Source of the DNA: a virus
Virus record (IMG/VR): IMGVR_UViG_3300032214_001034
Location: 1 to 64,000 of that record
Reading direction: 5' to 3' (one strand)
Length of the DNA: 64,000 bases
Below the pieces are notes generated by a model. It had not been told where the DNA came from. It saw only the letters and a list, made by a program, of their open reading frames with translations, and ran no database searches. Position numbers and translations under genes: made by a program. Within the stretch, counting starts at the first letter, position 1, and each line of letters begins with the position of its first letter. Below, piece after piece: positions 2,505 through 7,873 of this stretch.

Positions 2505-2533
2505 AAATATGAGAAATAACAAACGGAGGTTTG

Positions 2534-3595
2534 ATGGTTTCATCTACATTACAACAACCAATTACACAAAGGGGATGGTTCGATGTTCTCGATGACTGGC
2601 TTAAGCGTGATCGGTTTGTTTTTGTCGGTTGGTCTGGCTTACTTTTATTTCCGACAGCTTATCTCGCTCTTGGTGGGTGGCTTACAGGGACCACCTTCGC
2701 AACTTCGTGGTACACCCATGGAATTGCGAGTTCATATCTTGAGGGGTGTAACTTTCTTACTGCTGCTGTATCTACTCCTGCTGATGCTCTCGGACATTCT
2801 CTTTTACTCTTATGGGGTCCTGAAGCTCAGGGAGATTTCGTCCGCTGGGTCCAACTTGGGGGACTCTGGACTTTTGTGGCGCTCCACGGAGCTTTCAGCC
2901 TGATTGGTTTCATGTTGCGTCAGTTTGAGATTGCTCGACTGGTTGGAATCCGTCCTTATAACGCAATCGCATTCTCTGGTCCTATCGCTGTATTCGTCAG
3001 CGTCTTCCTGATGTATCCTCTGGGTCAATCTAGTTGGTTCTTTGCTCCCTCCTTTGGTGTGGCAGCGATCTTCAGGTTCCTGCTGTTCCTTCAAGGTTTT
3101 CACAACTGGACTCTTAACCCATTCCACATGATGGGTGTAGCGGGTATTCTGGGTGGTGCTCTGCTTTGTGCAATTCACGGTGCTACTGTGGAGAATACTC
3201 TCTATGAAGATGGAGAACAGGCAAATACCTTTAAGGCTTTTGAACCGACGCAAGAGGAGGAAACTTATTCGATGGTTACTGCGAACCGTTACTGGTCACA
3301 GATTTTCGGTATTGCTTTTAGTAACAAGCGTTGGTTGCATTTCTTTATGCTCTTTGTTCCCGTCATGGGTTTATGGACATCTAGTATCGGTATTATTGGA
3401 CTTGCTCTTAATCTTCGTGCTTACGACTTTGTATCTCAAGAGATTCGTGCAGCGGAAGATCCGGAATTTGAAACGTTCTATACAAAGAACGTATTATTGA
3501 ATGAGGGGTTACGTGCTTGGATGTCACCAGTAGATCAACCTCACGAGAACTTTGTATTTCCAGAGGAAGTTCTCCCGAGGGGTAATGCACTCTAA
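2534..3595 (+). CDS. psbD: Photosystem II D2 protein
   Basis: D2 pairs with D1 in the photosystem II core and binds QA and half of the special pair. The protein has 353 residues and shows the family pattern throughout: [19 protein letters not shown] near the N-terminus, the [22 protein letters not shown] helix with the chlorophyll and iron histidines, and the C-terminal [13 protein letters not shown] chose ATG 2534 because GGAGG lies four bases before it; a TTG at 2531 is less likely. The spacing from psbA allows separate regulation of the two genes. Confidence 0.97.
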
Positions 3596-7174: not shown

Positions 7175-7211
7175 AATATTATAAAATTGTATCACAAGTT
7201 ACAACAAAAAA

Positions 7212-7240
7212 TTGCTACATATATTGAATAGGTCTATAAT
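7212..7240 (+). promoter_or_regulatory. sigma70-type promoter of the riboswitch unit
   Basis: TTGCTA (7212-7217), a 17-base spacer and TATAAT (7235-7240). The expected start at about 7247 coincides with the first paired base of the riboswitch (7248), so the RNA would have essentially no extra 5' sequence. Confidence 0.75.
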
Positions 7241-7245
7241 GACCT

Positions 7246-7343
7246 TACGTTCATCCCTATGGGACGGAAGTAAGCCGACGCGGAACGGATCGTTCATTCG
7301 CTATTCGCAAATAGCGAACGCAAACGCCGACTGAAGGAACGCT
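7246..7343 (+). promoter_or_regulatory. Glutamine-type (Downstream-peptide) riboswitch
   Basis: The sequence has the pattern I know for the glnA/Downstream-peptide RNA class, which binds L-glutamine. A P1 stem pairs CGTTC (7248-7252) with GAACG (7337-7341); the conserved GGGACGGAAGTAAG follows P1; and GACTGAAGGAACGC closes it. A variable arm forms a perfect 9-bp hairpin, TTCGCTATT/AATAGCGAA with a CGCA loop (7297-7318). The class typically precedes short ORFs in cyanobacteria and cyanophages, as here, 34 nt before a DUF4278-like mini-gene. The RNA class is recognised by eye; Rfam was not searched. Confidence 0.8.
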
Positions 7344-7374
7344 CTTTAACCTAAAAAACTAAGGAGAAAACCTA

Positions 7375-7512
7375 ATGTCTAAAGTAGTTTATCGCGGTGT
7401 AGAGTATGATACTCAGAAGCGTCTTGAGTATCAGCAGCAAATGATGCAGCAACCCCAACAGTACAACGAAACCTATCGTGGTGTTAAGTTTGTAAAGGAG
7501 GGTCACAAGTGA
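7375..7512 (+). CDS. DUF4278-like mini-protein under riboswitch control
   Basis: A 45-residue protein with two copies of a YRGV motif: VVYRGVEYDTQKR near the start and ETYRGVKFVKEG near the end, separated by a Gln/Met-rich linker. The YRG-hydrophobic pattern is typical of the DUF4278 short proteins found downstream of glutamine riboswitches in cyanobacteria. AAGGAG (7361-7366) is a strong ribosome-binding site. Its stop overlaps the next ATG (TGATG). The function is unknown; control by glutamine suggests a role tied to nitrogen state. Confidence 0.75.
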   Translation: MSKVVYRGVEYDTQKRLEYQQQMMQQPQQYNETYRGVKFVKEGHK

Positions 7513-7610
7513 TGCAGAAACTCAACGTACTTCAACTCATTAAAGAGCAGAAGCAAAAAGAGCAACGTCGTCACCAAGCACTGCTTGCAAACGCAGGAGC
7601 GGGTAAGTGA
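7512..7610 (+). CDS. 32-residue mini-protein
   Basis: MQKLNVLQLIKEQKQKEQRR followed by HQALLANAGAGK. It is Lys/Gln-rich and helical. The start overlaps the preceding stop by one base, and GGAGGG lies just upstream in the coding end of the previous gene. It therefore looks like the second cistron of a coupled set. I do not recognise a family. Confidence 0.6.
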   Translation: MQKLNVLQLIKEQKQKEQRRHQALLANAGAGK

Positions 7611-7693
7611 TTGCTACGATTGCATCTATTACAGTTGCATCGACTGCATTCATTTATATAATTTATTTTGAAGTTCTATTGCTAAACAAGTAA
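7607..7693 (+). CDS. 28-residue membrane micropeptide (GTG start)
   Basis: A GTG overlaps the preceding stop as GTGA. It opens a 28-codon frame that is almost entirely hydrophobic (IATIASITVASTAFIYIIYF), ending EVLLLNK. Its TAA shares a base with the next ATG. This would be a single transmembrane helix. The perfect interlocking with both neighbours is the main evidence that it is translated. The size resembles small photosystem or cytochrome subunits, but I cannot assign it to one. Confidence 0.5.
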   Translation: MIATIASITVASTAFIYIIYFEVLLLNK

Positions 7694-7848
7694 TGGAAGA
7701 CTATCATTATCACTATGATGATATGGACAAGGACAATAGGGGTCCTGCTTGTTATCTTTTAACATATCGTGGATGCCGATATTGGTCTTGTTATCGTATT
7801 CATCTGGTGGAATGGTTTGAAAAAATGTTTAATGTAGAGGGGTCTTGA
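7693..7848 (+). CDS. 51-residue protein with a YRG motif
   Basis: A 51-residue protein: His/Tyr/Asp-rich start (MEDYHYHYDDMDKDNRG), then LLTYRGCRYWSCYR, which resembles the YRG core of the DUF4278 protein two genes upstream, then a short helical tail. It has three Cys and three His or more, so metal binding is possible. It is the last member of the riboswitch-controlled set; its stop lies inside the terminator hairpin. Confidence 0.6.
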   Translation: MEDYHYHYDDMDKDNRGPACYLLTYRGCRYWSCYRIHLVEWFEKMFNVEGS

Positions 7849-7864
7849 CACCCCTCTTTTTTTT
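7836..7864 (+). terminator. Intrinsic terminator of the riboswitch unit
   Basis: AGAGGGGT (7836-7843) and ACCCCTCT (7850-7857) form a perfect 8-bp stem with a 6-nt loop followed by a T-run. The loop contains the -35 hexamer of the next promoter, and the stem contains the last codons of the preceding gene. Confidence 0.85.
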
Positions 7865-7873
7865 AACTATAAT
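7845..7873 (+). promoter_or_regulatory. sigma70-type promoter nested in the terminator
   Basis: TTGACA (7845-7850), a 17-base spacer and TATAAT (7868-7873) give a perfect consensus. The -35 lies in the terminator loop and the T-run forms the spacer. It would drive the thyX-phoH-gp33-gp59 operon. Confidence 0.85.

Follow-up and report, generated by a model that had tools for sequence, protein, structure and literature searches.

Organization of the locus

The sequence analyzed here, referred to as the window, comprises 64 kb of the 74,468-base virus record IMGVR_UViG_3300032214_001034. Its gene content is that of a T4-like cyanophage, and the matches of the region described below belong to the Kyanoviridae. 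The usual cyanophage photosynthesis cassette is also present, with a PhotoRC-II RNA (941-1035) located before psbA (1073-2152) and psbD (2531-3595).

Four small open reading frames follow one another on the forward strand. ORF1 (7375..7512) encodes a DUF4278-like protein of 45 residues with two YRG beta-hairpins, ORF2 (7512..7610) a charged helix of 32 residues counted from the ATG, ORF3 (7607..7693) a membrane helix of 28 residues with a GTG start, and ORF4 (7693..7848) a conserved protein of 51 residues with the pattern YHxDDMDxxxRxPxCYxLxYRGxxYWSCY, which is found in 37 phage records. The frames are joined by TGATG (ORF1/ORF2), GTGA (ORF2/ORF3) and TAATG (ORF3/ORF4), and the operon ends in an intrinsic terminator (7836..7864) composed of an AGAGGGG-loop-CCCCTCT hairpin (7836-7857) and a T-run. 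The four lengths, the overlaps and the terminator had been proposed in a first-pass annotation of the sequence and were all exactly confirmed. A perfect sigma-70 promoter (TTGACA-17-TATAAT, 12 of 12 positions) lies at 7845-7873 with its -35 box inside the loop of the terminator hairpin; it would drive the next genes, which encode a phrog_878 protein and thyX.

Upstream of ORF1, on the same strand, we identified an NtcA-type box GTATCACAAGTTAC (GTA-N8-TAC, 7189..7202) and a sigma-70-type promoter (7212..7240) in which a -35 element TTGCTA (7212-7217) and a -10 element TATAAT (7235-7240) are separated by 17 nt, with 10 of 12 consensus matches. The riboswitch that had been placed in front of the frames was found to consist of two tandem RF01739 aptamers, aptamer 1 at 7248..7287 and aptamer 2 at 7291..7341. 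The first-pass annotation had neither the tandem arrangement nor the NtcA box, nor the gene that lies inside the aptamer in relatives.

Conservation of the four small genes

To compare the locus with its relatives, IMG/VR was scanned with alignments of ORF1 and ORF4, which yielded 160 loci (121 non-identical with the window). The dN/dS ratios (Nei-Gojobori, JC) were 0.06 for ORF1 (108 distinct sequences), 0.16 for ORF2 (90), 0.29 for ORF3 (46) and 0.12 for ORF4 (52); as the ORF1 and ORF4 sets were collected by protein similarity, their values are biased towards purifying selection, while the ORF2 and ORF3 sets are free of that bias. Codon position 3 takes most of the changes, and this excess is seen in all four frames. 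Conservation of frames and overlaps in related phages had been suggested as a check on the genes: the frames are open, all four are under purifying selection, and the overlaps are kept. Broken frames next to an intact riboswitch, which had been named as the outcome speaking against the genes, were looked for among the relatives and none was seen; the losses are clean whole-gene deletions.

ORF3, the membrane-helix frame with a GTG start, is open in all 50 loci that carry its slot. Its start alternates between GTG and ATG, and a -4 or -1 overlap is kept. ORF3 is missing from seven loci, where ORF4 abuts ORF2, and ORF2 from two. Judged from these alignments, the small genes behave as cassettes, in which whole genes come and go and the overlaps are kept.

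ORF1 and ORF2 form one frame in S-CREM1 and at three further loci. Proteins of phrog_545 likewise join an ORF2-like helix to a YRG...YRG part, although in the reverse order, and profile comparison of ORF2 with their N-terminal helix gave 79-95%. The ORF4 family is also found behind phrog_545 genes. A tblastn search with ORF2 alone returned no match in named phages; the query is too short for this, and the homology becomes visible through alignments. Residues 1-43 of ORF1 match the phrog_5049 HMM (E 1e-10), and its structure model has a pLDDT of 70 and a pTM of 0.30. A search by sequence for solved structures of ORF1 and ORF4 gave no meaningful match.

The expectation that standard gene callers would miss all four frames was only partly correct. 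In S-SRM01, DSL-LC02, S-PM2, S-RIM32, S-MS29 and others, coding sequences (hypothetical proteins) have been annotated for relatives of ORF1, ORF2 and ORF4, whereas several records, such as S-RIM8, S-WAM2 and S-H9-1, lack an annotation for the relative of ORF4. On the basis of the sequence comparison, we regard the four frames as genuine genes of a T4-like cyanophage.

Tandem glutamine aptamers, promoter and NtcA-type box

The RF01739 scores of 32.2 bits for aptamer 1 (with a partial match of 23.1 bits) and 33.1 bits for aptamer 2 (E 5e-5) are just under the curated Rfam gathering threshold of 35, with an E-value of about 1e-6 for the record. Glutamine aptamers lie directly upstream of ORF1 in approximately 109 of the 118 usable ORF1 loci. 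The P1 (CGUUC/GAACG) and P2 helices of RF01739 are kept with covariation, that of P2 being seen in relatives, and seven further ORF1 loci carry a compensated P1 with CGUUG/CAACG in place of CGUUC/GAACG. A single aptamer with this swapped P1 pair, a natural compensatory change, stands upstream of ORF1 in L331-L338.

Of 171 distinct regions upstream of tandem riboswitches, 139 contain a GTA-N8-TAC box, compared with 6.0 expected from shuffles. In this set the box mostly precedes aptamer 1 by 57-61 nt; compared with the position usual for an activator, it is shifted upstream by about one helical turn. Most relatives have TATA(A/C)T 13-14 nt ahead of the aptamer. NtcA sites have already been reported in cyanophages (PMC3037559); no report tying them to a glutamine riboswitch was found in the literature searched. 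Comparison across the relatives bears out the genes and, in front of them, the NtcA-type box, the promoter and the tandem glutamine aptamers.

The two aptamers are separated by only 3 nt in the window, and the 3' P1 strand of aptamer 1 (GAACG, 7283-7287) could pair with the 5' P1 strand of aptamer 2 (CGUUC, 7291-7295) across the loop GAU. This possible anti-aptamer hairpin (7282..7295, -3.9 kcal/mol) is part of the minimum free energy structure of the whole leader, where it costs both P1 helices, and the Shine-Dalgarno (SD) sequence is paired with CUCUUU; compared with shuffles, the fold of the leader is only marginally more stable (z -1.7). Because both P1 helices are nearly invariant, covariation cannot prove the hairpin, and what is conserved is only the short linker between the two P1 strands, 3-6 nt in all relatives but one. 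Downstream of aptamer 2, CUCUUU (7342-7347) and the SD AAGGAG (7361-7366) form a predicted hairpin of -4.6 kcal/mol, a possible expression platform (7342..7366). The anti-SD platform varies between relatives.

In the window, P2 of aptamer 2 is a plain hairpin (7297-7318). It is formed by the palindrome TTCGCTATTCGCAAATAGCGAA, which occurs as a single copy in the window. Near-identical copies are found in aptamer 1 or aptamer 2 of many other phages, and the palindrome may be a spreading hairpin unit.

A gene nested in aptamer 2 of related phages

In 87 distinct relatives, the P2 loop of aptamer 2 contains a complete gene of 49-66 codons. Its AUG lies immediately 3' of the tandem's second CGUUCAUC, and its stop codon immediately 5' of AGGAACG, which forms the 3' strand of the aptamer's P1; the stop is exactly one base before GGAACG in 81 of the 87 nested genes. 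All 87 inner proteins have exactly two cysteines. SynMITS9220M01, for example, has phrog_504 inside aptamer 2. In a first survey, the second loop was long in 69 tandem copies, and 66 of these had such a frame. The aptamer core encodes the last five residues and the stop in most cases, typically as GAC GCA AAN (GCC/GUU) GAC UGA.

Four lines of comparison support the view that structure and gene coexist. The two P2 strands flank the inner gene and covary, forming on average 5.9 contiguous pairs, compared with 4.0 (sd 0.18) for shuffled partners. Among 38 distinct constructs, 97.4% of cells pair in the P2 across the gene, every slid register is far worse, and double changes amount to 41 cells compared with 14.6 after shuffling; since kin sequences inflate the shuffle statistics, the raw z-values weigh less than the control with slid registers, the types of pair and the contrast between codons. 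Synonymous variation in the last five codons was 0.17, 0.07 and 0.00 for the three types of inner gene, compared with 0.69, 0.72 and 0.46 in the gene bodies. The triplet before AGGAACG is a stop codon in 85 of 87 gene-bearing aptamers, but in only 60 of 102 gene-free ones, where CGA or CAA is common.

Loci with identical or near-identical ORF1 proteins carry either form of the aptamer. In DSL-LC02, whose ORF1 is 98% identical to that of the window, the gene is present where the window has the hairpin. The window's phage represents the empty-loop form of aptamer 2, derived or ancestral.

The inner protein, a member of phrog_504 or phrog_13397, is modelled as a two-helix hairpin (pLDDT 81, pTM 0.58), for which Foldseek returned nothing below E 3. 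A host origin was considered and rejected, as phrog_504 was found in none of 388 Cyanobacteriia genomes. In each of four phage records it has one match, at the aptamer. In P-SSM2 (L444, 426 to 805), no coding sequence is annotated between PSSM2_319 and PSSM2_320; at the corresponding place in its close relative P-SSM5, the inner-aptamer gene is annotated (AGN12278.1).

These observations make it likely that a protein gene is nested in a metabolite-sensing aptamer and takes its final codons and stop from the aptamer's 3' core, so that translation and glutamine sensing would be mutually exclusive. As the inner gene starts in P2 and ends in the aptamer core, ribosomes and the ligand-bound fold should exclude each other, which predicts opposite glutamine responses of the inner and the downstream genes.

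Relation to DUF4278 proteins and glutamine synthetase inhibitors

Cyanobacterial glutamine aptamers mostly precede DUF4278 genes, and DUF4278 forms the N-terminal part of the glutamine synthetase (GS) inactivating factor IF17, where it is reported to be dispensable for inhibition (PMC6316151). DUF4278-type YRG motifs had been ascribed to the first and the last frame of the operon. The assignment holds weakly for ORF1, which reaches 19.1 bits with PF14105 at a Pfam cut-off of 25.3, the P-SSM7 homologue reaching 30.3 bits. ORF4 had to be dropped as a DUF4278 protein: it has no Pfam match, and profile comparison gave 74% over 11 residues only, a short YRG-hairpin similarity.

To identify the cyanobacterial partners of the riboswitch, genomes were scanned with the aptamer pattern and the genes behind the aptamer were inspected. 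The scan revealed IF7-like genes in five cases, IF17-like genes in three and DUF4278-only genes of 56-60 aa in five, and among these aptamer-linked genes it is the DUF4278-only ones that ORF1 resembles. In five further cases, the cyanobacterial DUF4278 protein was of a second class, distinguished by another helix at the C-terminus, approximately HxxNLxxNLxxRLxxA...DQxLIxLLExE; several members of this class lie behind a glutamine riboswitch.

By eye, ORF2 is a plausible split-off GS-binding segment of IF7. This candidate was rejected, as hhalign gave 0.1% for ORF2 compared with 97.3% for a split-half control of IF7 itself. The MLxR motif occurs in 0 of 132 ORF2-type sequences, and by profile comparison the arginine-rich GS-binding segment of the IF7 type (ARxLM...QNRQxSMLxR) is absent from the operon. 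The first-pass idea of a glutamine-regulated gene set with the logic of GS inhibitors is accordingly retained for glutamine control and the DUF4278 link, but not for any resemblance beyond those. With a riboswitch of the same class and a DUF4278-like part but no IF7-like segment, the operon resembles IF17 in its regulation rather than, as far as these comparisons go, in the inhibitor itself.

Discussion

It is almost certain that the small genes are real and stand under a glutamine riboswitch, and the locus as a whole is in our view probably best explained as an operon that responds to nitrogen status and encodes four genuine small proteins of the phage. Against it count the aptamer scores below the gathering threshold, the position of ORF1 alone under the Pfam cut-off, the lack of an IF7-like segment, the variable platform and the small advantage of the leader fold over shuffles.

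We propose that NtcA would adjust transcription of the operon according to 2-oxoglutarate. The two aptamers would be coupled, because GAACG of aptamer 1 can pair either with its own CGUUC or with that of aptamer 2, 3 nt downstream. At low glutamine, a single hairpin would break both P1 helices and glutamine would rebuild both, giving a steep switch. Glutamine is probably an ON signal, by analogy with the type-1 and type-2 glutamine switches of the hosts, for which glutamine is reported to raise expression (PMC6316151). It would turn on translation, probably by freeing the SD AAGGAG from CUCUUU; this step is the weakest of the mechanism because the exact platform varies among relatives. Translational coupling through the overlaps of 1-4 nt would hold the four products in ratio. 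The YRG beta-hairpins of ORF1 and the helix of ORF2 presumably work together, because they are fused in other phages, and the two proteins could be a viral version of the glutamine-induced small DUF4278 proteins of the host, adjusting nitrogen assimilation during infection. That the small proteins act on host nitrogen metabolism is suggested tentatively. In the gene-bearing relatives, translation of the inner gene would unfold the sensor, and the folded sensor should block the inner gene.

Direct inhibition of host glutamine synthetase in the manner of IF7/IF17 appears unlikely. The riboswitch class and a DUF4278-like module do recall IF17, and the ORF1-ORF2 fusions mimic its order of DUF4278 and helix, but the hhalign comparison of ORF2 with IF7, the lack of MLxR and the reported dispensability of the DUF4278 part all argue against this. 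Slightly less probable still is that the aptamers are remnants, the leader being only a translation enhancer or mRNA stabilizer and the genes serving an unrelated role early in infection, for example with ORF3 and ORF4 at the membrane. The sub-threshold Rfam scores, the variable platform and the presence of the ORF4 family behind phrog_545 genes would fit such a role; the P1 compensated in seven loci, the P2 covariation and the conserved NtcA box instead indicate strong selection on the sensing parts. That the frames are untranslated and their conservation reflects an RNA function is very improbable: short as they are, and structured as the leader is, all four combine an excess of third-position changes with low dN/dS, and GTG/ATG start swaps and whole-gene indels are seen.

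The operon shares its predicted aptamer class, a DUF4278-like partner and putative control by NtcA and glutamine with the cyanobacterial type-1 glutamine riboswitch (glnA RNA, RF01739), which precedes gifB/IF17 (Klahn 2018, reviewed in PMC6316151) or DUF4278 genes; tandem glnA RNAs have been noted before (PMC2864571). In contrast to that system, it is phage-borne, comprises four coupled mini-genes and lacks a GS-binding segment, its P1 strands are 3 nt apart and shared, and in relatives a gene lies inside aptamer 2. The PMM1846-type DUF4278 proteins (7 kDa) of marine picocyanobacteria also lie behind a glutamine riboswitch and an NtcA motif (PMC6316151). The window resembles them in having a small DUF4278-like protein behind such a switch and motif but differs in its type-1-like aptamers and multi-gene operon, the sequence relation being compared at the family level only. 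Phage glutamine riboswitches are known from S-CREM1 (PMC9964418) and the methylophage Melnitz (PMC9004378); as far as we consulted these reports, the RNA alone is named, with no mention of a small-gene operon or nested gene. The S-CREM1 aptamer is homologous to that of the window, and its downstream gene is the ORF1-ORF2 fusion.

Tandem glutamine aptamers were also observed in genomes of marine Alphaproteobacteria and of SAR86 Gammaproteobacteria, where the genes behind them are large and include glnA and one for a predicted ammonium transporter; the class is thus not confined to cyanobacteria. In a MAG of the gammaproteobacterial family Porticoccaceae (L142, ~7563-7742), tandem aptamers precede a DUF4278-like protein of 60 aa with three YRG motifs. 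Either misbinning or a genuine transfer may account for this; tandem aptamers are also present in two other genomes of this family.

Genes nested in a functional RNA are familiar from the open reading frames of group I introns. A peptide frame also lies within the Yfr6 RNA (PMC2518516). The nested gene is like both in that a structured RNA houses a reading frame, but here it is a metabolite aptamer that houses the frame, and its ligand-binding core also supplies the final codons and the stop. For this layout we found, provisionally, no precedent in the literature searched, mostly non-subscription journals.

Our results suggest that cyanophages carry a nitrogen-sensing regulon made up of an NtcA box, tandem glutamine aptamers and a cassette of interchangeable mini-genes, which offers a tangible starting point for studying the response of these abundant ocean viruses to the nitrogen status of their hosts. 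In relatives, where a gene is likely folded into the riboswitch aptamer, the ligand-binding RNA core would also be coding, and the interplay between ribosome and riboswitch thereby becomes accessible to direct tests.
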